NCBI RefSeq assembly: GCF_009497895.1
Contig: NZ_CP033116.1
Coordinates: forward strand, 2,356,001-2,420,000
Source: Halopseudomonas pelagia
GTDB lineage: Bacteria; Pseudomonadota; Gammaproteobacteria; Pseudomonadales; Pseudomonadaceae
Reading direction: 5' to 3'
DNA length: 64,000 nucleotides
Position 1 is the stretch's first letter, and every line of letters begins with the position of its first letter. This document shows, piece by piece, positions 2,133-59,365 of this stretch. The notes beneath the pieces are model-generated. The model was not told where the DNA came from and ran no database searches. It saw only the letters and a program-made list of their open reading frames with translations. The position numbers and the translations under genes are program-made.

Positions 2133-3092
2133 CTAGCCATGGCCTTGCAGGGGTTCAACGCCCTGGCCGGCCAGCTCGGGGAAGTCATCGTGAATTTCCA
2201 GGGGCTTCACGTTGCGGCGCGCACCCAGGTATTCAGGCCGTTCGCTATTCGCGGCGTAGGGCACGCCCAATGGGTTGTCGACGCTGTTGTAGACGAAGAA
2301 CAGATTGGAGCGTGGCCAGGGCGACATATTGCCGTTTGACGCATGCAGCACATTGCACTCGAATAACAGCAGTGAGCCAGCAGGCCCCTTGGGTGCTTGA
2401 ATACCGCCGCGCTTGCCCAGGTCCGCGAGGACGGTTTCGTCAGGTACACCGGCTTTCTGCGCCTTCAGCGAGCTCTCCCAATTGGCCTCGGGGGTTTCAC
2501 CGACACAGGGCACGAATTGGTGGTGCGAGCCAGGGATGAGCATCAGCGGGCCGTTGAACTCGTTGTTGTCAGTCAGCATTAACGACGCACTGACGGCGCG
2601 CATCCGTGGCATGCCGTCTTCGGCGTGCCAGGTTTCAAAATCCGAATGCCAGTCAAATCCGCTGCCTTGAAAGCCGTACTTGTCGTTGATGCGCGACTGG
2701 TGGATGTACACCTCGCTGCCCAACAACTGGCGGACCATGCCCAGGATTCGCGGGTCGCGGGTCAACTTGCTGAACCGTTCCGACAGCTCATGCATACCGA
2801 ATACCGAGCGAATGGCGCCGCTGGCCGGGTCGGAGATGACCTGTTCGGATTTGAGCATTTCAGGGTCCTGAGCCATTTCCTTCAGCTCTTCAAAGAACGG
2901 CTGCATGCTTTCCTGGGAAAAGAAGCCTTCAAACCAGAGAAAACCATCGCGCTCGTAATGGGACAAAGCCACCTCGTCCAGCGGACCATTCCAGCGATGT
3001 TGATTGCGCGAGTGCACTACGGGGTCGCGGCGCCTTACCGGCGCGTGGTGTTCCGACAGGCGGGTGGGGTATAAATCCAACGATTTCGTCAT
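2133..3092 (-). CDS. ectD: Ectoine hydroxylase (2-oxoglutarate dioxygenase)
   Basis: Cytoplasmic non-haem iron, 2-oxoglutarate-dependent dioxygenase that converts ectoine to 5-hydroxyectoine. The protein is 319 residues, close to the family's usual 300-310. The EctD signature is present: Q-S-R-I-N-D-K followed by W-H-S-D-F-E-T-W-H and G-M-P-R-M-R. Predicted iron ligands are H149, D151 and H250. ATG 3092 has GGAGG 8 nt upstream. No ectA, ectB, ectC or ask gene lies next to it, so ectoine must come from a locus elsewhere or from uptake. Other phytanoyl-CoA dioxygenase relatives are possible, but the extended signature makes EctD much the best call. Confidence 0.9.
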   Translation of the reverse strand: MTKSLDLYPTRLSEHHAPVRRRDPVVHSRNQHRWNGPLDEVALSHYERDGFLWFEGFFSQESMQPFFEELKEMAQDPEMLKSEQVISDPASGAIRSVFGMHELSERFSKLTRDPRILGMVRQLLGSEVYIHQSRINDKYGFQGSGFDWHSDFETWHAEDGMPRMRAVSASLMLTDNNEFNGPLMLIPGSHHQFVPCVGETPEANWESSLKAQKAGVPDETVLADLGKRGGIQAPKGPAGSLLLFECNVLHASNGNMSPWPRSNLFFVYNSVDNPLGVPYAANSERPEYLGARRNVKPLEIHDDFPELAGQGVEPLQGHG

Positions 3093-3471
3093 GCGGGTAA
3101 CCTCCAGGGTTATCTGTTATCTGTCTGTAAGAGCACAGTTCAGCGTCCTGGGCAAAGGTCCAATGATCGCGGGTTGTATTTCCGTCAGAGCGTGGCAGCA
3201 GAGATTGTTCATACAGAGATGAATCAGGTTGCCGGTGCGAGTCTTGCTTTGGTACGCGCTGCGGATGTTCAAGCTGTCGCGGCAACTGCGCCGCCAGATT
3301 GTGTTGCGGAATGACCTTCGCCGTACCCATGCGACATGGGGGGGCTGAAAAAAGTTTCAAGAGTTTTCTTTATGCTCACCACCGCGTCGTTTCTGGGTGT
3401 ACGCTTGGCCCCTGAAATTTGCCGATGCCAGCATTGGCTTCAAGCACAACATTGTTAACAGGATGAGCATC
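3093..3471. other. Intergenic stretch between divergent ectD and dsbA-like gene
   Basis: About 380 bases with no convincing coding frame, RNA gene or strong promoter match. Read on the minus strand, a short direct repeat (AGATAAC twice) lies just upstream of the ectD ribosome binding site. The stretch presumably holds the promoters of both divergent genes; I see no clear salt-responsive or other operator. Confidence 0.4.
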
Positions 3472-4203
3472 ATGGGAGAAGCAAAGCGCCGACGGACCAC
3501 CGGGGAACCAGCACCGCAGCGCGAGAAGCGCAAACACAAACAGTCGCTGCTATGGGGCGGCGGGCTGGTGGTGGTTCTGGCACTTGTCGGGTTAACGGTG
3601 TACCTGGCCACACCCGGTAGCGGCCCGACCACGGCACTGCCAAGCGTGCCGGAAAATACGCCGCCGTTTCCCGCGGAACTGGATCGTTACGGTGTTGAAC
3701 TGGGTGATCCGGATGCGCCTGTAGTGGTGCGCGAATTCGCCGATTATCAATGTCCCGCATGTGCCGCCTTTGCTCGGGTACATGAGCAGTTGCGCACGGA
3801 CTATATAGATACCGGCAAGGTGCGCCTGGTGTTCTTCGAGCTACCGCTGAGTCAGCATCGCAATGCGCTTCCTGCCGCACAGGCAGCCCGTTGCGCGGGG
3901 GATCAGGGTGCCTATTGGGCAATGCATGATCAATTGTTTGCCAGTCAATCCAGCTGGAGTGCGCAGGGTGATCCGCTGAGGATTTTCAACGGTTATGCTC
4001 AGAACCTGGAATTGAACGAAGGACGCTTTGAACGCTGCATGAATACTGAGCAACGCCGCGAGCAGGTAGAAGCCAGTGCAGCGATTGCGCAACAACTGCG
4101 AGTGGCGAGCACGCCTACCGTGCTGGTCGATAACATCCCGCTTACCCGGCCAGGTTGGGAGCAGTTGTCAGGGCTGATTGAACAGCAGCTCGAAGGTCAG
4201 TGA
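3472..4203 (+). CDS. Membrane-anchored DsbA-like thioredoxin-fold protein
   Basis: Thiol-disulfide oxidoreductase-like protein of 243 residues. A basic N-terminus starting M-G-E-A-K-R-R-R is followed by one membrane helix (about 26-47) and a periplasmic DsbA-type thioredoxin domain with a C-P-A-C active site (C94, C97) and a cis-proline motif T-P-T-V near the C-terminus. The orientation (basic end in the cytoplasm) fits the positive-inside rule. ATG 3472 follows AGGA by 8 nt; an in-frame ATG at 3463 is an alternative. It is a lone gene. The domain order resembles BdbD or DsbA-family anchored oxidoreductases; whether it oxidises, isomerises or reduces substrates cannot be told from sequence. 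Confidence 0.82.
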   Translation: MGEAKRRRTTGEPAPQREKRKHKQSLLWGGGLVVVLALVGLTVYLATPGSGPTTALPSVPENTPPFPAELDRYGVELGDPDAPVVVREFADYQCPACAAFARVHEQLRTDYIDTGKVRLVFFELPLSQHRNALPAAQAARCAGDQGAYWAMHDQLFASQSSWSAQGDPLRIFNGYAQNLELNEGRFERCMNTEQRREQVEASAAIAQQLRVASTPTVLVDNIPLTRPGWEQLSGLIEQQLEGQ

Positions 4204-5928: not shown

Positions 5929-6561
5929 ATGAGTATCGAAACCTGGCTGGCCTTCCTGCTGGCGTGCTGGATCATCAGCTTGTCGCCTGGCGCCGGTGCT
6001 ATCGCGTCGATGTCCAGTGGCCTGAATTACGGCTTCCTGCGTGGCTATTGGACGGCCCTCGGTTTGCAGTTCGGGCTGCTGTTGCAGATCGCCGTCGTGG
6101 CTGCGGGGGTCGGCGCGTTGCTGGCAACCTCGGAGCTGGCGTTCAGATTGATCAAATGGTTTGGGGTCGGCTATTTACTCTTCCTGGCCTGGCGTCAATG
6201 GCGCGCTGCACCCGTGGATATGCATGCAGCCTCTTTGACCAGACCGGTAGGTCGGCCGCTGAGCCTGGTCATGCGCGGCTTTCTGATCAACGCCAGTAAT
6301 CCCAAGGCGGTGGTGTTCATGTTGGCGGTGCTGCCACAATTTCTGGATCTGAGCAGGCCGTTGCTGGGTCAGTATCTGCTGATCGCCATAACCATGGTGG
6401 TGGTTGATCTGATCGTCATGGCGGGTTATACCGGCCTGGCGGCACGTGTACTGGGATTGCTGCGCTCACCACGGCAACAGCGGCTGCTCAACCGTACCTT
6501 TGCCGGGTTGTTTGCTGGCGCAGCAGGGCTTCTGGCCTGCGTCCGTCGGGCTGCCAACTGA
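5929..6561 (+). CDS. LysE/RhtB family amino-acid exporter
   Basis: Inner-membrane protein of 210 residues with about six hydrophobic segments and the LysE-family N-terminal motif L-S-P-G-A-G-A. Family members export amino acids or derivatives such as homoserine, threonine and lysine. The loop motif N-P-K-A-V-V-F is also present. ATG 5929 follows a short leader with no regulator next door. The gene ends 58 nt before the ion channel gene on the same strand, so the two may be co-transcribed. The substrate is not predictable. Confidence 0.88.
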   Translation: MSIETWLAFLLACWIISLSPGAGAIASMSSGLNYGFLRGYWTALGLQFGLLLQIAVVAAGVGALLATSELAFRLIKWFGVGYLLFLAWRQWRAAPVDMHAASLTRPVGRPLSLVMRGFLINASNPKAVVFMLAVLPQFLDLSRPLLGQYLLIAITMVVVDLIVMAGYTGLAARVLGLLRSPRQQRLLNRTFAGLFAGAAGLLACVRRAAN

Positions 6562-6619
6562 ACCCTTCGCCGCCTATTTGAGTCTGACCGCATACCATTT
6601 TCAGGCATGGAGGACACAG

Positions 6620-7597
6620 ATGCTGTTGGTCATTCTGGCGGTCTTTGTTCTACTGCTGACACTGTGGGATGTGTTTATCACGGTGTTCAGTACGCAGGGG
6701 GCAGGGCCGCTGTCCTATCGTTGGGGTAAATGGATCTGGGCAGGTCTGCTGCACCTGCACCGGCGGCGGCCAATCCATCGGGTACTGTCGCTGGCGGGAC
6801 CCTTCGTGCTGCTCAGCAGCATTCTGCTCTGGTACTGTCTGATTGGGCTGGCACTGCTGCTGATCTTCTCGGTGCAGCCCGACTCGGTAGTGCACGGTAG
6901 CTCGAATGCGCCGGCGTCGCTGGAGACGCGCTACTACTTCATTAACACCACCCTGTCCGGACTGGGGTATGGTGACTGGGTGCCGTCGGCGTTTCCATGG
7001 ACGCTGCTGGCAACCCTGGGAACCCTGGCTGGAACGGCGGTGCTGACGGTCTCTCTGTCCTATGTGCTGTCCGTAGTGTCGGCGGCGATTGATCGCAAGA
7101 AGTTGGCGCAGTCGGTTTTTGGCATGGGCACGAGCGTAACGCAGGTTATAGACAACGCCAGATTGAGCGATCCGCGCGATTCGTTGAAAAATCATTTTCT
7201 GACCACTGCGGGAGAAATCGATCACCAGCGACTCAAGCATCTGGCTTATCCGATACTGGCGTATTTTCATTCCACCTCGGTGGATTTTTCTCCAGCGCAT
7301 GCTGTGTTGCTGTTGGCGGATGCCTGCTTTGTGTTGCAGGTAGCTGCGCCAGACCGCCGCGCGCCAATGGGCGTGTTGCAGGTAGTCAATAGCAGTATCC
7401 ACAACTTTGCCCAGCTACACGCTTCCGGGGCGACCGTTAAGCAAGATCCTGACTGCCCGGCACCGTTGCTGGCAGCAGCGGTGAAGCAGGGCGCGGCGAT
7501 CAATAGTGAGGAATTTAAACAGGCACTGGCCCACTACCTGCCATGTCGTGCTCGATTACTTGCGCTGTGCCGGGCAGATGGTTGGCAGGTAGGCTGA
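6620..7597 (+). CDS. Potassium-channel-like membrane protein
   Basis: Protein of 325 residues. The first about 185 contain three or four membrane helices and a pore loop with the selectivity-filter pattern L-G-Y-G-D (115-119), typical of the two-transmembrane ion channel family (PF07885). The remaining cytoplasmic about 140 residues are not a recognisable TrkA-N/RCK domain and carry no Rossmann glycine motif. ATG 6620 is preceded by GGAGG; upstream in-frame starts overlap the LysE gene and lack support. Cation channel activity is inferred from the filter; gating is unknown. Confidence 0.8.
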   Translation: MLLVILAVFVLLLTLWDVFITVFSTQGAGPLSYRWGKWIWAGLLHLHRRRPIHRVLSLAGPFVLLSSILLWYCLIGLALLLIFSVQPDSVVHGSSNAPASLETRYYFINTTLSGLGYGDWVPSAFPWTLLATLGTLAGTAVLTVSLSYVLSVVSAAIDRKKLAQSVFGMGTSVTQVIDNARLSDPRDSLKNHFLTTAGEIDHQRLKHLAYPILAYFHSTSVDFSPAHAVLLLADACFVLQVAAPDRRAPMGVLQVVNSSIHNFAQLHASGATVKQDPDCPAPLLAAAVKQGAAINSEEFKQALAHYLPCRARLLALCRADGWQVG

Positions 7598-7704
7598 GCC
7601 AACACTTGCCATCTCACTGGCGCAGGGGTTTATCGCATTGGTAGGGTTGCCCAATTGGGAGCGCTTCAATAGCATGCTGGAACATCAATCAAGAGGACGT
7701 TTTA

Positions 7705-7992
7705 ATGTCAAATGAAGGTTATCACGAACCCGTTTCCGAGCTGAGCGACGAGACCCGCGATATGCACCGCGCCATCGTATCGCTGATGGAAGAACTGGAA
7801 GCCATGGATTGGTACAACCAGCGCGTCGACGCGTGCAAGGATGCCGACCTCAAGGCCGTGCTCAAGCACAACCGTGACGAAGAGAAAGAACACGCCGCGA
7901 TGACCCTGGAATGGATCCGCCGGCGTGATCCGGTGTTTGATAAAGAGCTACGTGACTGGTTGTTCACCGATAAGGATCTGGCCCACCACTGA
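7705..7992 (+). CDS. EncFtn-type ferritin-like protein, no encapsulin nearby
   Basis: Protein of 95 residues, closely like the encapsulated ferritin (EncFtn) family, which oxidises ferrous iron at a di-iron site built between two subunits. Conserved features by position: E30 and the E60-x-x-H63 pair as di-iron ligands, W36-Y37, E29 and E32 as the entry-site acidic residues, and the D-E-T-R-D-M-H-R-A-I start of helix 1. Classic EncFtn proteins carry a C-terminal tail that docks them in an encapsulin shell. This one ends soon after the F-T-D-K motif and has no such tail, and no encapsulin gene lies within the window. ATG 7705 follows AGAGG. A bacterioferritin gene lies 1 kb away. Function outside a shell is inference. 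Confidence 0.85.
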   Translation: MSNEGYHEPVSELSDETRDMHRAIVSLMEELEAMDWYNQRVDACKDADLKAVLKHNRDEEKEHAAMTLEWIRRRDPVFDKELRDWLFTDKDLAHH

Positions 7993-32449: not shown

Positions 32450-34309
32450 TCAAGCGAGCCGTCGATAGTGTCCGCTTTGTCGGGTCAGGCCGGCTTTGTC
32501 GAAGTACTCCAGAACCGCGACGCTGTGATTGCGACCAATGCCGCTGTGATCGCGGAAGCTGGCCGTGCTGAACTGCCCGTCACACTGTTGCCTTGCCAAC
32601 TCGCCAGCGACGCTGAGCAGGTGATCAACGCTTTCCGGAAGCAGGTAGCGATTGCGTCCCACGCACGCCAGTAACCCCAGGGCGCTTAGTTTATCCAGCC
32701 TGGTCAGTAGCCCGGCCTTGTCCAGGTTAAAATCAGCCATCAGCTCGCCGATAATAGGCGGGCGTGGGGCGCAGGCGCGAAAGGCAGGCTGCAGCTGTTC
32801 GAACCACTCCAGACTTTGCGTATCGGCTTGGGGTTGATGGCCCGGCAAGTGCAGGTTGGGACCGTTTTGCTGCAGCATGTGCCGGTCGAGGGCATGACGA
32901 ATCACCGCGCTCAGCAGTCGACTCCTGGTAGGCAACACCAGATGTCTTGTGAGGCGCGGGCGGGTCATGCCGGCCTGATCGGGATGCTGAAGATGATGCT
33001 CAGCTAACGCTGCCAGCAGATGCTGCAAACACTGATCGAAATCAGCTCGCCTGCACAGCCAGCCAGCCACGCGAAGAATTTCTGTATGTCTCGCTCGCCC
33101 AGGCTCGATAGTCAGGTGGCGGGCACGCATGAAGCGGCGCAGATCTACGCCGTCGGCCAGCACGGCCAGCAAGTTCTGCAGAGCCTGGTCAGCATCGGGA
33201 GCATCCATGGCCACCAGGGCTGCGAGACGTTCCGGCCGTTGCCGGCCCTTGGTCTCGGCAAAAGGATCGAGCACCTGGCCGCTACCAAGCAACTTGCGGC
33301 TGGCCGGGTCGCGGATGATAAACCGCTCGCCGTAACGGCAACATACAGGTCGGTCCAGAATCCACTGTCCGTAGTGCTGATCTGCGGTTAATGGCTCCCC
33401 CCTCAACGGAACACAGCGGGCGTTGATTACCGCATTACCCATATGCAACTGCAGAGTGCCTCGATTGGGCAGGCGGGAGATCAGCTGCATGCGTGCGTCC
33501 AGGCAAGTGCTCGGCGCGAAAATGGCTGCGTCGAGTAATTGGCTGCCACGGGTCAGGTCCGCGCCCGTCATATCGCCCACCAGATTCAACGCGCAGCGCT
33601 GGCCTGCATGGGCGGCACTAGCTGCCCGACCGTGCACCTGTATGCTGCGGATCCGCAAGGAGGCGCCGTTGTCAGACAGGCGTAGAACGTCACCGGTCTG
33701 AACACGCCCGCTCAGCAGGGTGCCAGTCACGATATCGCCTGCGCCGGGCTGGCTGAAATGGCGGTCAATGCTCATCCGTGCCGGCCCTTGATTATCCGCC
33801 GCGGAAAAGCTCTCGACCCAGCTGTTGAGCTGCTCGACAAGCGCAGCTATCCCATCGCCGCTCAGACTGTCGATCAAAAAGCTCGGTGGATTATGAACAG
33901 CTAGGTCGGCCAGAAGCTGCAAGGTCTCCTGCTGTACTCGCAAGGCGCGCTCGTTAGTGACGCTGGCGCATTTGCTGATGACCACCAGGATTGGTCGGCC
34001 GCCGAGCAATTTGAGGACTTGCAGATGCTCCAGCGTTTGCGGCATAACGCCGTCATCCGCAGCGACCACCAGCATCACCGCGTCGACACATCCCATGCCG
34101 GCGAGCAGGGTGCGCATGAATTTTTCGTGACCGGGTACATCCACCAGATCAATCGTCTTGCCGTCAGCGCAGGCCATCCAGGCGTAGCCCAGCTCGATAC
34201 TCATGCCGCGGCGCTGTTCCTCGGCGGTACGGTCAGTATGCTGGCCGGTTAGCGCTTTGATCAGCGCCGTCTTGCCGTGGTCAACGTGGCCAGCCGTGGC
34301 GATGATCAT
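32450..34309 (-). CDS. selB: Selenocysteine-specific elongation factor SelB
   Basis: Protein of 619 residues that carries selenocysteinyl-tRNA to UGA codons marked by a SECIS hairpin. The N-terminal GTPase has G1 motif G-H-V-D-H-G-K-T (7-14), D-V-P-G-H-E-K-F, and a T/S-K-C type G4. EF-Tu-like barrels follow (about 165-340), then a winged-helix array at the C-terminus (about 370-619) that reads the SECIS. Start ATG overlaps the selA stop by 4 nt, so the two are coupled. It is encoded downstream of a UGA-containing gene that is probably its client. Confidence 0.95.
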
Positions 34310-35715
34310 GTGAAAGGCCGCGCCTGGAGCTGGTCGATCAGCAGCTGTTCTTCGTCCAGGCAGCGCAGGTCGAGCAATAACCGGCCGTCGTGCAGTCGAC
34401 CAATGACGGGTACCGGCAGCTTCATCAAGGCACTTTGCAGACGTTGTAGTTGTTTGTTAGCGCCGCGCTTTCCGGCCGTCGGCTGCAGGGCAATGGCGCT
34501 ACTTGGTAGCCTTTCCACCGGCAAGGAGCCACTGCCAATCTGGCCCATAACGTCGATTACCGACGCCTGCGCGACATCGCCTGCCCAGGCTTGAAATAAC
34601 GGCAACAGCCTGTTCACTTGCTGGCGGATGTCGTGCTGCGGCCGGCTTAACCAGCGCAGGCTCGGCAGGCGCGCGGCGAGATTTTCCGGGTGTGCATAGA
34701 GCTTGAGCACCGCTTCCAGTGCGGCCAGGGTAACCTTGTCGCAGCGCAGGGCGCGCTTGAGCGGGTTCTTTTTCAGTTTGTCTATCAATGCCCGTTTGCC
34801 AACGATAATGCCGGCCTGCGGTCCGCCCAGCAGTTTGTCGCCGCTGAAGGTGATCAGGTCAGCGCCATTGGCGATGCTGTCCATCGGCGTGGGCTCGTAG
34901 GGCAGGCCCCACTGGCGCATATCGATCAGGCTGCCACTGCCCAGATCTATGGCGTAGGGCAACCCCTGTTCATGCGCGACCTGGGCAATTTGCGCCTCCG
35001 GCACGCTGGCGGTAAAGCCCTGGATGGCGTAGTTGCTGGCATGGATGGTCATCAGTAGGCCGGTTTTCGAGCTGATCGCTTCTGCGTAGTCGCGCAGGTG
35101 CGTGCGGTTGGTCGTGCCTACTTCATGCAGCTTGGCCTGGGCGCGGCGCATGATATCCGGTACGCGAAAGGCGCCGCCGATTTCCACCAGCTCGCCACGG
35201 GACACCAGTACCTCCTTTCCCTTTGCCAGCGTATTGAGCGTCAGCAGTACAGCGGCAGCATTGTTGTTGACCACGGTGGCGGCTTCGGCGCCGGTCAGGC
35301 GGCATAGCCAGTCCTCGACGTGGCTGTCACGATCACCGCGTTTGCCCTTGGCCAAATCGAATTCGAGATTGCTTGCCCCTCGGGCCACATCGCACATGGC
35401 GCTGATGGCTTCTTCCGGCAATGGCGCGCGGCCCAGGTTGGTGTGCAGAACGGTGCCGGTGAGATTGAACACCTTGCGCAGGGAGGGGGCGAGCAGGGCG
35501 TGCAACTGTTGCTGTACACGTTCGACAAACTGATCGGGGTCGCAAGGTTCACTGTTGGCTCTGAGCCGGCTCAGCTCATCGCTGATGATCTGCTTGGTCA
35601 GTGAGCGGCCGTGGTGCTTGGTCAATTCGTGGATGATTGGCCAGTTCAATATCTGGTCCACGGAGGGCAGGGTACGACGCACATCGGAGGATGTGGGCAG
35701 GTCGGTATTCAGCAC
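34306..35715 (-). CDS. selA: L-seryl-tRNA(Sec) selenium transferase
   Basis: PLP enzyme of 469 residues that turns seryl-tRNA(Sec) into selenocysteinyl-tRNA(Sec) using selenophosphate. The PLP lysine is K294 in [13 protein letters not shown]. The family motif [14 protein letters not shown] is at 84-97, and the helical N-terminal tRNA-binding part is complete. Start is GTG 35715 with GAGG about 10 nt upstream; no ATG gives a full protein. It lies 225 nt after the UGA-containing gene on the same strand, with a large inverted repeat in the gap. Confidence 0.95.
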
Positions 35716-35940: not shown

Positions 35941-36471
35941 TCACGAGTCTTGCAGCGTTAACGCCTCCAGAATACTCTCGAAAGCGTTGTCGGCCAGTGC
36001 GCGCAATTCGTCATCGGTACGGTCCTGAATCGGGTGAGGAACAAACACCATTTTCGGGTCCATGCCCAATGCCTTGGACTGCAACGCTGCCGCTTCAACA
36101 AATTCGCTGGAAGCTATGCCTACGCCGGGGATCTGCCGGCCTTCCAAGTCGCCTATATCATGCATACAGCACGAGGTACAGGAGCCTCAGTCAGCCAGGC
36201 CTTCCACCAGCAGATCACACTCACTGGCGATCTGTTGTTTCAGATCCGTGGGGGCAATACGTGCGAAAGTAGGTTTGCGATAGCGTTTTACCTCGATGCC
36301 GCGCTCGCTGAGCAACTCATCCAGACGATCCAGCAGCACGTTGCCACGTGCCTTGGAAATATCCAGCAAGCCGACAGTCAGCCCCTCCAGTGTGGCGGGT
36401 CTGGCCGTCAACGCGCGGCTAGCTGCCGAGCGTTCAGCGGTCGGGTCGAGCAATACGGTCGGCGATATCAT
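35941..36471 (-). CDS. UGSC-type selenoprotein read through an in-frame UGA
   Basis: One frame of 176 residues in which codon 95 (36187-36189) is UGA; conventional gene finding splits it into two pieces (36187-36471 and 35941-36165). The predicted residue is selenocysteine in U95-G-S-C98-T-S-C101-C102-M-H-D. The frame continues for 81 further sensible codons, including V-F-V-P-H-P-I-Q and a helical end, to a normal stop. U-x-x-C is a redox-type motif. Proteins with this motif are, as I recall, grouped as UGSC family (seleno)proteins related to parts of glycine and proline reductase subunits. ATG 36471 has a strong AAGGAGG and overlaps the upstream gene's stop by 4 nt. selA and selB follow downstream. 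Substrate and reaction are unknown. Confidence 0.88.
36158..36189 (-). promoter_or_regulatory. Candidate bacterial SECIS element with Sec UGA codon
   Basis: On the transcript, taking the U of UGA (36189) as 1, bases 16-21 pair with 27-32: U-A, C-G, G-U, U-A, G-C, C-G. This makes a 6-bp stem (36158-36174) with the 5-nt loop UGUAU at 22-26. The loop starts 18 nt after the UGA and has a G at its second position. The described bacterial SECIS pattern (small loop, G in the first two loop bases, loop 16-37 nt after UGA) is met. Folding was done by eye. Confidence 0.7.
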
Positions 36472-37904
36472 GCCGTTACCTCCTTGCTAACCGGGGTGGA
36501 GCCAGTAGGGCCGGAAGCGGCCCAACCAGCGATAACGGCGGAAAACAGACCAGCCGGGCCACCGGCCCTGACGATCAGCAATCCACCAGGTCGAAACTTG
36601 GGTAGATCGGCGCCGGCCAAATTTTCCGGCATGCCTTCGGTAATGTCTTGAGCGCCCATCACCAGATCCTTGCCCGGCAGAGTCAGAAGGCGAGCTAGCT
36701 CTTCGTGCAGACGCGCCTTGCTCCAGCCGGCATCGGTAAATACCCTGCAGTGTTCGGGCGATACTACCAGGATGGCGTCGCCGTGCATGACCAGCTTGTA
36801 GTGATCGACCGCGCGCAGTGAAAGGGCAAAACTGCGCGCCAGGGATTCGGGTGTGCGGGATTTCTGATCGACGATCGCCTGCACGCCCTCGGCGGCAAAT
36901 AGCGTGACCACCGATTGGTCCTTGGTAAAGCCGCGCTCCACGGCCAGAGAATCCCACTCGCTGTCTTCAGCTTCGGCAAAGCAGAAGCTGTATTTGCCAG
37001 GGGTACCCATGGTTGCGCGGTCAATCTCGCCGGGTCGGCCACCGCCGACATTGCGCACGACCAACTGCAGTGCGCGGCCAATACTGGCGTTGGCGCGGTT
37101 GCCCTGACCCAGGCAATTGACACCGGAGTTCATGCCGATACGTTTGGCTGCTGGACCGTTTACCAGCACCAGTGGGCCGGCAAACATGGTGGTGCAGAGC
37201 AAACCGTGCATGCCGAACTCGTCAATCAACGCAGCCTCGACGGCAGCCAGCACCACGGGCATATATTCAGGTTTGCAGCCGGCCATGACCGCATTGATCG
37301 CGACTTTTTCCACGGTGCAGGGCACCAGGTCCGGCGGCATCAACCCGAGCACTTCGTCGGCTTTGCGCTCGGTGCCCTGCAACATGCGGTACACGCGCTC
37401 GGGTGTGGGTGGCACAACGGGCAGACCGTCGCTCCAACCACGCTCATGACAGGCTTCTATCGGATCTTCACTCTCGCCGATTTCCACCTCACGAGACTGA
37501 AAGGTAACGGCGCCAAAGCGGATTGCCAGCTTCTCTGCCATGCCCGGATCCTGGGTTTTCGACCCGCAGCCGGGGCGGGAAGGGGGCAGGTCCGAGCCAA
37601 GACCAGGCATGCCGGTCAGTTGCTCCCAATCCTCGCGGAACCAGCCATAGGTGCGGCTCTGTTCCTGGCCGTTGGCGCGATGAATAAGGGTAGGGACGAT
37701 TTCACAGTCCAGCTGCCAGGACCACTCCAGCGTGTCGTCCTGGATCTGTTGGCCGGCGCCCACGTTGAAATCGGCGGTGTCCTGCACAATAACCGTGAGC
37801 GGTTGATCGCCGCTGGCCAATTGAGCCAGTACGGGTTCGATCAAGGCGCAGGTCGGGCAGGCGCGCTTGAGGATGACAATGAGTCCATCAGGTAGTGTTT
37901 GCAT
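36468..37904 (-). CDS. Thioredoxin-fold protein with large uncharacterised domain, UGSC partner
   Basis: Protein of 478 residues. Residues 1-98 look like a thioredoxin fold with C16-P-T-C19 in the active-site place and a cis-proline V-P-T at 70-72. A linker has P-G-C113-G-S. The remaining about 360 residues form a domain I cannot name, with W-S-D-G-L-P-V-V-P-P-T-P near 157-168, several possibly conserved cysteines (C196, C210, C237, C264) and a glycine-rich end. No signal peptide or membrane helix. Its TGA overlaps the ATG of the selenoprotein gene, so the products are likely made together. A plausible role is to exchange thiols with the Sec site, or to be the catalytic body that the selenoprotein serves. 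Both are inference. Confidence 0.8.
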   Translation of the reverse strand: MQTLPDGLIVILKRACPTCALIEPVLAQLASGDQPLTVIVQDTADFNVGAGQQIQDDTLEWSWQLDCEIVPTLIHRANGQEQSRTYGWFREDWEQLTGMPGLGSDLPPSRPGCGSKTQDPGMAEKLAIRFGAVTFQSREVEIGESEDPIEACHERGWSDGLPVVPPTPERVYRMLQGTERKADEVLGLMPPDLVPCTVEKVAINAVMAGCKPEYMPVVLAAVEAALIDEFGMHGLLCTTMFAGPLVLVNGPAAKRIGMNSGVNCLGQGNRANASIGRALQLVVRNVGGGRPGEIDRATMGTPGKYSFCFAEAEDSEWDSLAVERGFTKDQSVVTLFAAEGVQAIVDQKSRTPESLARSFALSLRAVDHYKLVMHGDAILVVSPEHCRVFTDAGWSKARLHEELARLLTLPGKDLVMGAQDITEGMPENLAGADLPKFRPGGLLIVRAGGPAGLFSAVIAGWAASGPTGSTPVSKEVTA

Positions 37905-38048: not shown

Positions 38049-39488
38049 TCAGCTGGCTATTGCGGTCAGCTGTGGCCTTCCGCTGGTACCACCATGCTCC
38101 AGCAGTGCAGACAGGCGCACGTCAGCTCCAATCACATAGCGCAATTGCCCATTCTCGGAAAACACCGGAGCTGAGAGGGTAAAACAAAAGGCATCGGTAG
38201 CCGAGGAGCGGTAAACCGGACTGATCTGCGGGGTGAGCTGATCTTTGACCTTGCGAAACCAGCTTCTGCTCGACCAATTGCTACCCTTCATGCTCTTGGC
38301 GCTGCTGGATTCAAGATCTGGCGCCAGAATGTTTTCGCTGACCTGCATGCCATCTGCACCCACCAGGTACATCAATTCAAAGCGGCCATCCTGTACCAGG
38401 CAGCTACGCATCAGTTGCTCGGCTGCCCCGATGCCTGAGCAGATCGCGGGTTCCTTCGCCAATGCGACCACGCGCTCGCGAATTTGTTGGTGGACTGCTA
38501 GCTGAAATTCGCCCAGCCCCTCCAGCAGACGGTCACTCTCCAACCGGACCGCATCACTGTGTTCGCGGACCTGGGTAGCGCTTTGCTTCAGGTCACCGGC
38601 AACGTCAGCGACTTTTTGCACGTCGGCGCTGACCGAGCGTACGGCCGCGCCGATCTGCTCTGTACCACTGGCCATGCCAGCCACGCGTTGATCCAGTTGG
38701 GCCATGGATTCGGTCGCATGGCTGAGCCCCTGATCAACCCGTAAAATGCCTTCGCGGCCGTCGGAGATGGCCTGGTGCATGCTGTCCCCGGCTTGATGAA
38801 GTCTTTGCATGCCGCCGCGCAGGCCATTGATGATCTGCCCGACCTGATCCGTTGCCTGGGTGGTGTGGCCCGCCAAACGTCGTACCTCGTCGGCGACCAC
38901 CGCAAAACCACGGCCTTGTTCACCGGCGCGGGCCGCTTCAATAGCCGCATTGAGCGCCAACAGATTGGTCTGCTGAGAGATGTTGGCGATCATCGCGATC
39001 ACCTGGTTGACCTCTTCAAGCTGCTTGCTCAGGGTCTGGATTTCCGCTGCTAGCGATTGTTCGGTTGCCTGTATGGTGTCGACCTGGCCGAGCACCAGTT
39101 GGCTGTCGGTTTCGCAAGCCTGCAACTGGGTGGATACGCTGCTGGCCAGATTCGCCACGGCAGTCGCGCCCGGCACCAGTTCCGACTCCAGGCTCGCACT
39201 GATTTCCTCGATCGCACTGGCGATCATCTCCGAGGATTCGGCCAATTGGTCGCCCTGAGTTTCTGTTGCTCTGGCAATGCTCGCCAGTTTCGGCGCATGC
39301 GCAGCTATCCCCACGGCCGCGTGCAGGCTGAGCGTAATGCGCTGCTGCAGTTTGCCGGTCAATCGACCGATTCTGCCAAGCAGGCCGGCTTGTTCCGGCA
39401 CGGTGACACTCAGATCCAGGTGATCGAACAGCCTGTCCAGCTGCTCGGCTCCGTTTCTATCCTTGCGGGAGAAGTTGAAAAGACTCAT
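38049..39488 (-). CDS. Cytoplasmic chemoreceptor with C-terminal Cache-like sensor
   Basis: Protein of 479 residues with no membrane helix. The signalling domain comes first: coiled coil from about 80, hairpin tip [19 protein letters not shown] near 172-190, coiled coil to about 330. The C-terminal about 130 residues ([13 protein letters not shown], then S-W-F-R-K-V-K and [10 protein letters not shown]) resemble a PDC/Cache sensor, a fold usually found outside the membrane. It should signal to CheA or a Che-like kinase from the cytosol. ATG 39488. The unit is monocistronic. The ligand is unknown. Confidence 0.85.
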
Positions 39489-41710: not shown

Positions 41711-43261
41711 TCAATCCAGCTCGCCATATTGCGCCTGGAACTGATCACGCAGTTCGCGCTTGAGCACTTTGCCAATCGCGCTGCGCGGCAGCTCATCGGT
41801 GAGAATCATGCGGTTGAGTCGTTGGGTCTTGCCAACCCGCTCATTGAACCACTGGCAGATGGCCGGTGCGTCAGTGCTCACGCCAGGTCGCAGTACCGCA
41901 TAACCTACCGGCGTCTCGCCCCAGCTGCGTGATTGCACACCGATAACGGTCACTTCCAGCAGGTCAGGATGCTTGCGCAACTCCTGCTCCAGATCGCTGG
42001 GATAGATGTTGAAGCCACCACTGATAATCATGTCCTTGCGTCGGTCCATCAGCGTCAGGAAGCCTTCTTCATCGAAGCGGCCGACATCGCCCGTGCGAAT
42101 AAAGCGCTTGCCTTCGGCGTCGTACCACTCCGCTTCGGCGGTCTTTTCCGGCTTGTTCAGATAACCGGTCATCATCGCCGGGGAGTGGCCGACCACTTCA
42201 CCTATCTCGCCGAAGGGCAGTTCCAGGCCCTCTTCGTCGATCACGCGCATATCGTGATTTTCCAGCGGCTTACCGACAGTGGCGAGCTTGTCTGGAAACT
42301 GGTGCGCAGCGAGCATGCAGGAGCCACCGCCTTCGGTCATGCCGTAGAACTCGATCAGGCCGCCCGGCCAGCGCTTGAGAATATCCGCCTTGAGCTCTGC
42401 GTGGAAAGGCGCACTGGTGCTGAACTTCATATGGAAGGAAGACAGGTCATATTGATCAAAATCTTCGCGCGCCATGATTCGCTGGTACTGAACCGGCACC
42501 AGCATGGTGTGAGTTGCTGACAGCTGCTCGGCGAGTTTCAGATACTTGGCCGCGTCGAATTTGGCCATCAATACCACGGTACCGCCCAGGCCGATCGATG
42601 GCAGGAAGGAAACCAGCGTGGTATTGGAGTACAGCGGGGTAGAAATCAACGTCACGCATTGCGGGCCATAATCGAACACGATGCCGCGTTGAATGTGCGA
42701 CCAGCGCATGCCGTGCGATTGCACGATGCCCTTGGGCTCGCCGGTGGTGCCGGAGGAATAGATGATATTGAACGGCATCTCCGGGGTGATGGTCACCGGA
42801 GCAGGCGTGGCGTCAGCGAGCCAGTGGGTAAAACTCTGATCAGCACGGCTGTCATCCATGCTCATCAGCTTGATCTGATGTTGTTCGGCGGTTTTGCCCA
42901 GTGCCTGATCCACGGCCTGATCGACAAACACCAGCTTGGCTGCCGAGTCGCGGATCATGGTTACCAGACCTTCCGGCGTGGAGGAGGGTGCCAGTGGCGC
43001 GACAACCACACCTGCGCGCAGAGCGCCGATATACAGCAAGGCATAGGGGATCGAATTGCTGCCACAGATGGCGATGCTGTCGCCGGGCTGGAAGCCGTCG
43101 CGTTGCAGTGCTGCCGCCACTTGGTCGACCTTTTTGTTCAACGCCGCGTAGTCAAGCTGCTGATCATCCTGAATCAGCGCAGGATGGCTGCCTCGGGTCT
43201 TGGCGTGCAGGGCGATGAGGTCAGGCAGTACGCTAAAAGGCGTTTCAAGGGTGATGGTCAT
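41711..43261 (-). CDS. AMP-binding acyl-CoA synthetase family protein
   Basis: Protein of 516 residues that should activate a carboxylic acid as acyl-AMP and then a CoA thioester. ATP-binding motif Y-S-S-G-T-T-G-E-P-K-G at about 155-165, Y-G-M-T-E-G-G-G, T-G-D-V-G-R-F-D-E-E-G-F, and the C-terminal lysine motif R-S-A-I-G-K-V-L-K-R. The active-site lysine is present. It is in the class I adenylate-forming family, nearer to 4-coumarate/medium-chain ligases than to FadD. ATG 43261 gives the usual N-terminus; in-frame extension to 43474 looks non-coding. Lies 209 nt upstream of fabA on the same strand. The substrate is unknown. Confidence 0.87.
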   Translation of the reverse strand: MTITLETPFSVLPDLIALHAKTRGSHPALIQDDQQLDYAALNKKVDQVAAALQRDGFQPGDSIAICGSNSIPYALLYIGALRAGVVVAPLAPSSTPEGLVTMIRDSAAKLVFVDQAVDQALGKTAEQHQIKLMSMDDSRADQSFTHWLADATPAPVTITPEMPFNIIYSSGTTGEPKGIVQSHGMRWSHIQRGIVFDYGPQCVTLISTPLYSNTTLVSFLPSIGLGGTVVLMAKFDAAKYLKLAEQLSATHTMLVPVQYQRIMAREDFDQYDLSSFHMKFSTSAPFHAELKADILKRWPGGLIEFYGMTEGGGSCMLAAHQFPDKLATVGKPLENHDMRVIDEEGLELPFGEIGEVVGHSPAMMTGYLNKPEKTAEAEWYDAEGKRFIRTGDVGRFDEEGFLTLMDRRKDMIISGGFNIYPSDLEQELRKHPDLLEVTVIGVQSRSWGETPVGYAVLRPGVSTDAPAICQWFNERVGKTQRLNRMILTDELPRSAIGKVLKRELRDQFQAQYGELD

Positions 43262-43355
43262 GGTGACGATACTCGCAGGCTGTTGATGACAGCTGCGTAG
43301 TATCGCCGCTCGGTGCAGCCTTGCACAGGAGTGAAATAGTGGTGGATCAGCGCGG

Positions 43356-45290
43356 TCAATGATCGGCTTTTCTCGCCTGCAACTGGTCATCCACCGCTTT
43401 TTGCAATGCCTGGCGCGACAGTGGTTTGCTGAGGAAACCCTGCATGCCAGCGTCGACACATTGTTGCCGGTCATCAGGCATGGCGCTGGCAGTCAAGGCG
43501 ATGCAACTGATGGGGGCGTGTTGCTGCCTTTGGCAATGCTGCAAGTATTGGCGATAGACGGTAAGGCCGTCGATATCAGGTAGCTGAAGATCCATCAGGA
43601 TTACCGAGAAGGCTTGATCGTCCATGGTCAGATAGCTCAGCGCGGCCTGTCCGCTATCCGCGGTGATGACGCGATAACCCAGGCTGTGCAGCATGCCCTC
43701 GATGACCATCTGGTTCACCGGATTGTCTTCCACCAGCAGTATCGGTAGCTCTCCAATCATTGCGGTTGGCGGGATGGCAGTGTCGGGCGTCTCGGCCAGC
43801 GTGTCGGTCAAGGGCAAGGTCATTGTCAGGGTAAAGCATGAGCCTTGACCTTCAATGCTTTGCGCCTCCAGGCTACCGCCCATTTTCAGCGCAAAGGTCC
43901 GTGCAATGGACAGACCGAGACCGGTGCCGCCGAAGCGTCGGGAGGTGCTGCTGTCAGCTTGCTGAAAGGCCTGAAACATGCTTTCCAGCCGTTCAGGCGC
44001 GATGCCGATGCCGCTGTCGCGAATCTCGCAGCGCAGCCGGATATTGCGCGCATCGGTATCTGCCAGCCAACTGGCATCGATCTCGATGCGACCCTGCTCA
44101 GTGAATTTAAGCGCGTTACCGATCAGGTTGACCAGTATCTGCCGGATCCGGGTCGGGTCGCCGATCACCGTGGGCGATACGGGATTGCCCTGGGTGTGTG
44201 TGATCAGGGAGAGGCCCTTTTGCGCGGCGGTGTGCTCGAACACGGTCACGGAATGATTGATCAGATCGGGCAGGTTGAAGGCTATTTCTTCCAGGTCCAG
44301 CACGCCGCGTTCGATACGAGAGAAGTCCAGGATGTCGTTGATGACCCTCAGCAGGTGATCGGTAGATTCGCCGGCAATCTGCACATACTCGGCCTGCTCA
44401 TTGTTCAGCTCGGTGGTGTCCAGTAGCTGCAACATGCCCAGCACGCCGTTCATGGGTGTGCGTAGCTCGTGGCTCATCATGGCGAGAAAATACGATTTTG
44501 CCCGGTTGGCGGCTTCGGCCTCTTCCTTTGCTGTATTCATCTGATCCAGCGCTTGCTGTTGCTCAAACGCCGACTGCTGTAACGCGCCTGCGAGGGTGTT
44601 GATGTTATGCATCAACTTGCCCATTTCGTGCTGCTGATCTTCGGTCAAGCGAGTGTCCAAATGCCCATCCTGCAGCGCTTGAACCGCTTGGCTCATGCGT
44701 GCCAGCGGACTTGACAGGGCGCTGGCGAGCCGCAGCGCCAGTATCAGCGCTGCCATGATCACCAGCGCTGCAAGCAGCAGGGCGCCGAGCAGAATTTCAT
44801 CCTGTCGATCATCGAAGGCTTCGCGGCTCAGACCCACCCGCACCTGCCCGAGATAGCGGGACGCCTCGTCGCCTTGCATCGTGGGGGCATCCAGCAGGTA
44901 GAGCTCATTGCGTAATGGAATGCTTTGGCGCTGAATGTCGGCCGCGAAGTATTGCAAAGGGGCGGGCTGTGCTTGTTGTGCTTCGGACTGCAAATCCAGC
45001 ATCAGTGTGCCGGCTTGGTCATATACCTCCACGCTGCGCACATGCGGCGTGTCCAGAGTGCCTTTGATCAAGCTTTCGAGTGTCTTCAGGTTGCCGCTGA
45101 TCACGCCGTATTCAGCGGTAGGTGCCAGTTGCTTCGCGATCAGCGCACCGGTGTCCTGTAACTGACGACTCACGTCATCCAGGCGTGCGCTGACAAAATA
45201 GGCGAAGACCACCAAACCCAACATCAGCGCGGGGGCCAGGGCGATCAGAATCAGCCGGTTGTGAATGCTGCCGGTGTTCCTTGGGCTCAT
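43356..45290 (-). CDS. Hybrid sensor histidine kinase/response regulator
   Basis: Membrane protein of 644 residues. Helix 1 at 12-34, a periplasmic sensor (about 35-165), helix 2 at 168-190, HAMP (about 190-240), HisKA with phosphorylated H274 in S-H-E-L-R-T-P-M-N-G, an ATPase domain (N, G1, G2 boxes; F-G-G-T-G-L-G-L-S) to about 510, and a receiver domain with its aspartate in L-M-D-L-Q-L-P-D-I-D-G. No Hpt domain or output domain is present, so the phosphate must go to a partner. Its start overlaps the binding-protein gene by 4 nt, making that protein the likely input. Confidence 0.92.
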   Translation of the reverse strand: MSPRNTGSIHNRLILIALAPALMLGLVVFAYFVSARLDDVSRQLQDTGALIAKQLAPTAEYGVISGNLKTLESLIKGTLDTPHVRSVEVYDQAGTLMLDLQSEAQQAQPAPLQYFAADIQRQSIPLRNELYLLDAPTMQGDEASRYLGQVRVGLSREAFDDRQDEILLGALLLAALVIMAALILALRLASALSSPLARMSQAVQALQDGHLDTRLTEDQQHEMGKLMHNINTLAGALQQSAFEQQQALDQMNTAKEEAEAANRAKSYFLAMMSHELRTPMNGVLGMLQLLDTTELNNEQAEYVQIAGESTDHLLRVINDILDFSRIERGVLDLEEIAFNLPDLINHSVTVFEHTAAQKGLSLITHTQGNPVSPTVIGDPTRIRQILVNLIGNALKFTEQGRIEIDASWLADTDARNIRLRCEIRDSGIGIAPERLESMFQAFQQADSSTSRRFGGTGLGLSIARTFALKMGGSLEAQSIEGQGSCFTLTMTLPLTDTLAETPDTAIPPTAMIGELPILLVEDNPVNQMVIEGMLHSLGYRVITADSGQAALSYLTMDDQAFSVILMDLQLPDIDGLTVYRQYLQHCQRQQHAPISCIALTASAMPDDRQQCVDAGMQGFLSKPLSRQALQKAVDDQLQARKADH

Positions 45291-58327: not shown

Positions 58328-59365
58328 ATGAGTAAAGATATACGTCTGACCGAGTACAGCCATGGTGCCGGTTGTGGCTGCAAGATTTCGCCAAAGGTGC
58401 TTGATGAAATTCTCGCTGTCGGTCAGCCAGGTCCCGATTTTCCGCAGTTGTGGGTGGGTAATGCGAGTCGTGACGATGCGGCGGTTTTTGGTCTGGATGC
58501 CGAGCAGGGCATTGTCAGCACAACTGATTTCTTTATGCCGATTGTTGATGATGCTTTCGATTTTGGCAGAATCGCCGCGACCAATGCGATCAGTGATATC
58601 TATGCCATGGGCGGCAGCCCGATGATGGCCATCGCGATTCTCGGCTGGCCAATCAATCTGCTGCCGGCCGAGCTGGCTGGTCAGGTCATTGCCGGAGCGC
58701 GCTCGGTGTGCACTGCCGCCGGCATGCCGCTGGCTGGCGGGCACTCGATTGACGCGCCCGAGCCGATATTTGGCCTTGCAGTGACCGGCCAACTGAAACG
58801 CAGCCACCTCAAACGCAACGATAGCGCACGACCTGGTGCTCGGCTGTTTCTGACCAAGCCCTTGGGTATAGGCATCCTTACCACCGCGGAGAAGCAGAAA
58901 AAACTGCGCCCGGAAGACGCCGGCGTGGCACGCGATCTGATGTGCCAGTTGAACAGTGTCGGGGCGCGCTTTGCGACGCTTGAGGGCGTGCAGGCGATGA
59001 CCGACGTTACCGGTTTCGGTCTGCTCGGCCATCTGGTGGAGATGGCCGAGGGTTCCGGAGTCAAGGCGCGGATCGAAGAACGCCTGGTGCCACGTTTGGC
59101 CAGTGCCGACTATTACCTTGGCCAGGGCTGTGTGCCGGGCGGCTCGGGGCGCAATTTCGATAGTTACGGTGCCAAGGTCGCGGACATGCCGCAGGCATGG
59201 CGCAACCTGCTCTGTGACCCGCAAACCAGTGGCGGACTCCTGGTGGCGGTAGATCCTCAGGCGGAAGCGGAGTTTCTGGCCATGGCCGCCGCAGAGGGCT
59301 ATCAACTGCAGGCGATTGGCGAATGTTTGGCGGCGGACGCGGGTCCCTGCGTCGAGGTCGTTTGA
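58328..59365 (+). CDS. selD: Selenophosphate synthetase
   Basis: Protein of 345 residues that makes selenophosphate from selenide and ATP, the selenium donor for both SelA and MnmH. The active-site cysteine and lysine are C16 and K19 in H-G-A-G-C-G-C-K; here the first is Cys, not Sec. Glycine-rich N-terminal ATP motif and [10 protein letters not shown] are present. Its stop shares a base with the mnmH start codon, so the two are coupled. The selA-selB pair lies 23 kb away on the other strand. Confidence 0.96.

Follow-up and report, generated by a model that had tools for sequence, protein, structure and literature searches.

A UGA-containing UGSC gene in Halopseudomonas pelagia: very probable selenocysteine insertion, a fixed thioredoxin-domain partner and a possible link to glycine and proline reductases

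Two adjacent open reading frames lie on the minus strand of the 64,000-nucleotide stretch of Halopseudomonas pelagia DNA analysed here (the window), just upstream of the genes for selenocysteine (Sec) synthesis and insertion. Are they two genes, the pieces of a pseudogene, or a single selenoprotein gene, and if the last, what chemistry would it serve? An earlier note, made from the letters of the window, had described two fragments in one frame separated by a lone UGA at codon 95. The list of reading frames and their translations bears this out: frames 36187-36471 (94 residues) and 35941-36165 (74 residues) share one frame, interrupted between them by one TGA only, and read-through gives the context ...LVEGLAD-U-GSCTSCCMHDI...

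35941..36471, minus strand: UGSC selenoprotein gene, 176 residues; Sec95 is TGA 36187-36189, the stop is TGA 35941-35943

By its sequence this gene is a member of the UGSC family and differs from it in nothing essential. In profile searches it scored 149.2 bits against Pfam PF24696, 'UGSC family' (cut-off 25), and 153.8 bits against NCBIfam NF041046, 'UGSC family (seleno)protein' (cut-off 125), with both matches spanning the TGA; a homologue in H. pelagia is 95% identical. The description of the gene as hidden or undescribed is not borne out, as UGSC has already been published as a family of selenoproteins and has these Pfam and NCBIfam models. A 2008 ocean survey reported 255 Sec-containing and 21 Cys-containing UGSC sequences with a UxxC motif and placed the family among its commonest selenoprotein families (PMC2398784), and UGSC accounts for 8.2% of selenoprotein genes in another study (PMC9402790). 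In agreement with the earlier note, by which UGSC-type proteins have no known reaction, the available text of five papers lists the family and gives none (PMC13188914, PMC9312934, PMC7539508, PMC5029168, PMC9402790). Searches for 'UGSC family' and for Halopseudomonas together with selenocysteine found no literature.

Two separate genes, or a pseudogene with a real stop, would yield products that end at residue 94 or begin at the downstream ATG 36165. Gene calling with table 11 does return two pieces, and many database proteins of 97-99 residues span about half of the UGSC query and may end at the UGA. At the start of the upstream piece an AAGGAGG ribosome site, called strong in the earlier note, was seen by eye 7 nt 5' of the ATG at 36471, and this ATG shares 4 bp (ATGA) with the stop of the preceding gene. 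Conservation beyond the UGA speaks against a split gene. Among the 37 genomes grouped with the window genome (the genus, below), 27 carry UGSC, each with exactly one internal TGA, and the search of the family found it in none of 261 further genomes (27 of 298 overall). Over these 27 genes (351 pairs) pN/pS is 0.218 for the 78 codons 5' of the UGA and 0.157 for the 75 codons 3' of it; on these sequence comparisons, purifying selection is acting on both sides of the UGA in Halopseudomonas.

The same codon was followed in a wider set of loci. After 18 of the loci L009-L135 were left out (6 from the selD and formate dehydrogenase searches, 12 distant or fused relatives), TGA occupied the Sec position in all 109 loci that passed the motif score; 80 of these are the best 80 of 584 confirmed relatives, chosen by peptide patterns that exclude the Sec codon. 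The ATG at 36165, where by the earlier note a start in homologues would have refuted the selenoprotein reading, is not conserved, the codon there being ATG in just 67 of the 109 loci, ACG in 20 and others in 22. The earlier note had also proposed a search for homologues with Sec or Cys at position 95, and both kinds exist: besides the 109 TGA loci, genome G787 (100% complete) encodes a Cys form, C-GSCTSC, together with a thioredoxin (Trx) partner, and has no selB match over the cut-off. A second genome, G337, has a Cys form of the type C-G-L-C. In G915, which has no selB over the cut-off, the UGSC-like gene (L192, L195) encodes Cys in place of Sec and has a TGA at another site; it is perhaps decaying. 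Where the UGA form occurs, selB is present in five further genomes (G332, G314, G091, G783 and G980). The exception is G135 (97% complete), in which no selB exceeds the cut-off although a fused gene of UGA type lies on a contig of 3.1 kb (L016); a foreign contig or missing assembly may explain it. In 13 aligned database proteins the Sec position is Trp in three, Cys in two and Arg in two, the remainder being cut or shifted there. The Trp and Arg proteins (P0002, P0003, P0005, P0007, P0074) may reflect genuine substitutions, or the TGA may have been altered in sequencing or gene calling.

Downstream of the UGA the transcript could form a hairpin of the kind that directs Sec insertion.

36142..36189, minus strand: SECIS-like element; the TGA, then arms 36175-36169 and 36163-36157 with the apical loop UGUAU

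The 7-bp stem begins at the 12th nucleotide past the UGA. In 60 sequences (58 distinct) its pairing holds in 96.8% of 406 cells, versus 1.7-53.4% for slid partners. Two-sided changes occur at pairs 15-33 and 21-27 (8 cells, a number reached by 0 of 500 shuffles), pair 18-30 is found as GU, GC and AU, and RNAalifold retains five of the seven pairs. Further pair types, one of five measures, do not exceed the shuffles, all 500 of which reach the observed number. Folded alone, the 48-mer of the window has a z of -2.1 (10 of 200 shuffles fold equally well), and the outermost pair of its own stem is mismatched; an Rfam scan of the 64-kb window gave 0 matches. Taken together, TGA conservation, selection, the hairpin, the Cys versions and the non-conserved ATG 36165 make Sec insertion at UGA 95 close to certain at the level of sequence, and the gene apparently broken by a stop is very probably an intact Sec-containing subunit. 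The two-gene or pseudogene reading was dropped on the UGA conservation, the hairpin and the pN/pS after the UGA; the Cys homologue speaks against it as well, and we regard it as extremely improbable.

The position of the gene agrees with this picture, as the earlier note had seen: selA and selB both follow UGSC on the same strand of the window.

34306-35715, minus strand: selA, L-seryl-tRNA(Sec) selenium transferase (TIGR00474, 586.9 bits)
32450-34309, minus strand: selB, selenocysteine-specific elongation factor (TIGR00475, 355.4 bits)
58343-59263, plus strand: selD, selenophosphate synthetase, matched part (TIGR00476, 430.6 bits; contig 2414343-2415263)
35779..35885, minus strand: inverted repeat between UGSC and selA, with 28-nt arms that are 93% complementary and 51 nt apart

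With a tRNA-Sec outside the window (C1:2028498-2028588, scoring 72.8 bits where the gathering score is 47), the genome has the Sec machinery of tRNA-Sec, selA, selB and selD; ARAGORN found 0 tRNAs in the window itself. The claim of a selenoprotein is thus upheld by the family models, tRNA-Sec, selA, selB, selD, the SECIS-like hairpin, the codon conservation and the Cys homologue alike. The inverted repeat is a putative terminator or regulatory element. Among ten loci viewed, a similar element with different arm sequences occurs in L028 and, as far as the sequence reaches, in L031; several other members of the genus have no repeat of this type, or shorter gaps.

By the sequences compared, UGSC travels with selB in Halopseudomonas. 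In 26 of the 27 genus genomes with UGSC, selB lies at most 1.7 kb downstream on the same strand, three of them having a gap of less than 100 bp, too short to contain selA; in the remaining genome, G433, the locus ends 81 nt past the gene, apparently at a contig end. Over the cut-off, selB occurs in 28 of the 37 genus genomes, namely the 27 with UGSC and G569 (79% complete), in which UGSC was not found. Formate dehydrogenase exceeds its cut-off in five of the 37. In three of these (G536, G548 and G540) the gene contains one TGA, and these three carry two selB copies each; the window genome yielded no formate dehydrogenase above the cut-off. Among the named loci, the best 80 of 584, 56 extend over 5 kb downstream, and selA and selB both lie on that side in 19 of the 56.

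The most constant neighbor is the gene directly upstream.

36468..37904, minus strand: partner gene, 478 residues; N-terminal Trx domain (1-99, C16-P-T-C19) and C-terminal domain (about 115-478)

Coupling of the selenoprotein to a thioredoxin-fold protein had been noted earlier, and the present data sharpen it: a Trx domain, a Trx fold with CxxC, is joined to a large domain matched by no Pfam or NCBIfam model. The partner stands directly upstream of UGSC in 79 of 80 loci (the best 80 of 584 relatives), with the 4-bp overlap in 60 of these 79, and a homologue in H. salina is 92% identical. On this gene order, UGSC and the 478-residue partner are a fixed genetic pair, and we infer that the two proteins are physically in contact. 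Searched as part of the partner, the large domain gave no credible fold match; a likeness of the partner to class I fumarase is not credible (best Foldseek row E 3e-3, probability 0.63, TM 0.21). C210 is invariant among aligned partners. A role of the partner cysteines in Fe-S or pyruvoyl chemistry was rejected, as the fused relatives described below have Ala at C210 (seen by eye). Locus L126 has two partner-like genes (2622-4028 and 6384-7829) with one UGSC gene, the first being 30% identical to the partner of the window.

Single-sequence searches of the PDB with UGSC or the partner found no relatives at E up to 1, and the UGSC profile gave one weak match (E 0.78). In the structural model of UGSC (pLDDT 91.2) strands and helices alternate in five units, a predicted Rossmann-like fold with Sec95 at a helix start, and the Foldseek and VIA matches of the model are generic Rossmann- and flavodoxin-like folds. 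GrdB/PrdB are not among the listed fold matches, an absence that carries no weight. On the topology of this model, a prediction and not a solved structure, the Trx fold suggested for UGSC in 2008 was rejected.

Fused relatives allow a further comparison. In the gammaproteobacterial genome G332, 16 of 16 copies join the UGSC domain and the partner's large domain, without Trx, in a single protein (L015, L019-L026, L156, L157, L166-L170), all with an in-frame TGA and all of UxxC type (UGSC, USTC, USSC, UNGC, USLC, UDGC, UHGC); the hairpin has a z of -2 or below in only seven of the 16. To our knowledge, a 16-copy expansion of one selenoprotein family is unusual. The 2008 survey also shows, in Figure S1A, a fusion of UGSC with a conserved 'Unknown_1' domain (PMC2398784), which is possibly the large domain of the partner; in the window, by comparison, there are two separate genes, and a Trx domain is added on the partner.

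By hhalign, UGSC matches the 17 fused relatives at 99.9% (E 3.2e-34), the 17 fused relatives alone match 11 PF07355 (GrdB/PrdB) proteins at 82.9% (E 1e-6), and 20 UGSC relatives match the same proteins at 93.8% (E 2.9e-8), Sec on Sec. Controls gave at most 0.4% for 17 unrelated families, at most 1.0% for 60 column shuffles, and 0.1% each for reversed profiles and the Trx domain. Masking one column of UxxC left the 20-relative link at 89.2% or 85.4% and masking both the U and C columns left 0.7%; for the 17 fused relatives the values were 54.4%, 49.6% and 15.9%. The combined profile of UGSC and its relatives reached 42.1% against PF07355 proteins, a narrow UGSC profile gave 0.1% against PrdB-like proteins, and the window protein has no direct PF07355 match. 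Profile comparison through the fused relatives suggests a link of UGSC to GrdB/PrdB and is not decisive. In it the pattern strand-U-x-x-C-helix-LE.xGIPtV-VPhP is aligned on Sec, and both groups form paralogous sets, with eight predicted GrdB paralogues in one organism (PMC10838667) and 16 copies of the fused UGSC group in G332. UGSC differs from GrdB/PrdB in having no direct Pfam match to them and a partner with its own Trx domain. In papers that name both, PMC2398784 and PMC9312934 among them, the passages on UGSC draw no connection between the two.

GrdB/PrdB serve mainly anaerobes. PF07355 gave no match at E 1e-10 in the window genome and none in 299 genomes of the phylum, with no signal in any; it was found in nine of 35 genomes with UGSC loci, drawn from 36 of the 80 loci. 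Sec-containing PF07355 (PrdB/GrdB-like) proteins were collected at L171-L181, and in seven such regions viewed by eye no GrdE/PrdA or UGSC-partner gene was recognised.

With slightly better than even confidence, we favor a selenolate reductase resembling GrdB/PrdB that acts on a small organic substrate and is returned to its reduced state by the partner's Trx domain. SelA, SelB, SelD and tRNA-Sec would insert Sec at UGA 95 through the downstream hairpin. UGSC would be the catalytic half of a two-subunit enzyme, and the product of the upstream gene the other half, its large domain binding the substrate. As in glycine and proline reductase, the Sec95 selenolate would attack the substrate and reductively break a bond between carbon and a heteroatom, or a similar one. 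A selenenyl-sulfide would then form between Sec95 and Cys98, and C16-x-x-C19 of the partner would reduce it with electrons from the thioredoxin reductase of the cell. Of this scheme, the sequences show Sec in UxxC, a constant partner with a redox Trx domain and the rarity of Cys versions. Cleavage of C-F bonds has been proposed for selenoproteins of the GrdB type (PMC10838667). The fused copies of G332 lack the Trx domain; TrxR-like flavoproteins with CxxC are encoded in two of the G332 regions holding fused copies, both below the TRX_reduct cut-off.

Another arrangement known from glycine reductase would make UGSC a small carrier like GrdA: the partner would catalyse, and Sec95 would take over a selenium-bound substrate fragment and pass it on. 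Such a carrier would fit the pairing of a small Sec subunit with a large one that looks catalytic, but the motif of GrdA is CxxU and that of UGSC UxxC, the profile similarity was found on the GrdB/PrdB side (GrdA being outside the comparison), and in G332, where Sec and large domains form one protein, there is no free carrier. We consider this improbable.

Unlikely, though less so, is a Sec-based thiol:disulfide oxidoreductase or peroxidase, in which the partner Trx would recycle Sec95 and the large domain would be a scaffold or target. The UxxC redox motif and the Trx domain of the partner fit it, and most ocean-survey selenoproteins are thiol oxidoreductase homologues or have a Trx fold, which was expected for UGSC too (PMC2398784). 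The predicted model, however, is not of that fold. Moreover, Cys seldom replaces Sec in UGSC, as the 255 to 21 count of the survey and the 109 TGA loci indicate, whereas it far outnumbers Sec in several big survey families (Trx-like 1, 321 Sec and 7,880 Cys; Prx, 253 and 7,348); not all families are Cys-rich, witness Trx-like 3 (212 Sec and 183 Cys) and SelW-like (427 and 56) (PMC2398784). The large, constantly linked partner domain and the 16 paralogues in one genome suggest substrate diversity, which also speaks against this function. Genes that resemble katG, seen by eye near the UGSC unit in three Halopseudomonas loci, would be in keeping with a peroxidase; they lie within a few kb of it (L061, L063 and L149).

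The neighborhood was searched for clues to the substrate of the favored reductase. Parts of ABC and TTT transporters, AMP-ligases, CoA-transferases and SDRs recur near UGSC units and are never constant. Family scans identified a Liv-type binding protein and an AMP-ligase beside one unit (L058), and single neighbors of others as an SDR (L091), a TctC receptor (L082) and a family III CoA-transferase (L076). These neighbors hint at the catabolism of small acids, by routes that are CoA-linked or act on carboxylic acids, without fixing a single substrate. The genes flanking the unit vary among Halopseudomonas strains, and since operon neighbors other than the partner vary, they indicate no substrate. 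Upstream of the pair in the window, family scans gave the following.

38049-39488, minus strand: chemotaxis receptor (MCPsignal)
41711-43474, minus strand: AMP-binding ligase

Similar receptor and ligase genes occur in L056 and L148; the remaining Halopseudomonas loci that were viewed showed none.

The UGSC family itself has been known since 2008; the fixed partner pair, the Rossmann-like model, the GrdB/PrdB profile link and the co-occurrence with selB are added here. In Halopseudomonas, a genus with cultured strains, UGSC has a fixed partner and adjoins selA-selB, and its function is testable there. Deleting selA or selB in a cultured strain may mainly affect a single enzyme, and thus the role of UGSC would be directly testable. 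Tentatively, UGSC and its partner may represent a large, overlooked group of enzymes that cleave bonds reductively by means of Sec and are related in evolution to glycine and proline reductase. One form would carry its own Trx domain; the other, fused and often with a signal peptide, would have diversified into paralogues specific for different substrates, 16 of them in a single genome. If so, the Sec reductase chemistry of anaerobic amino-acid fermentation would be widespread in the aerobic degradation of organic matter.
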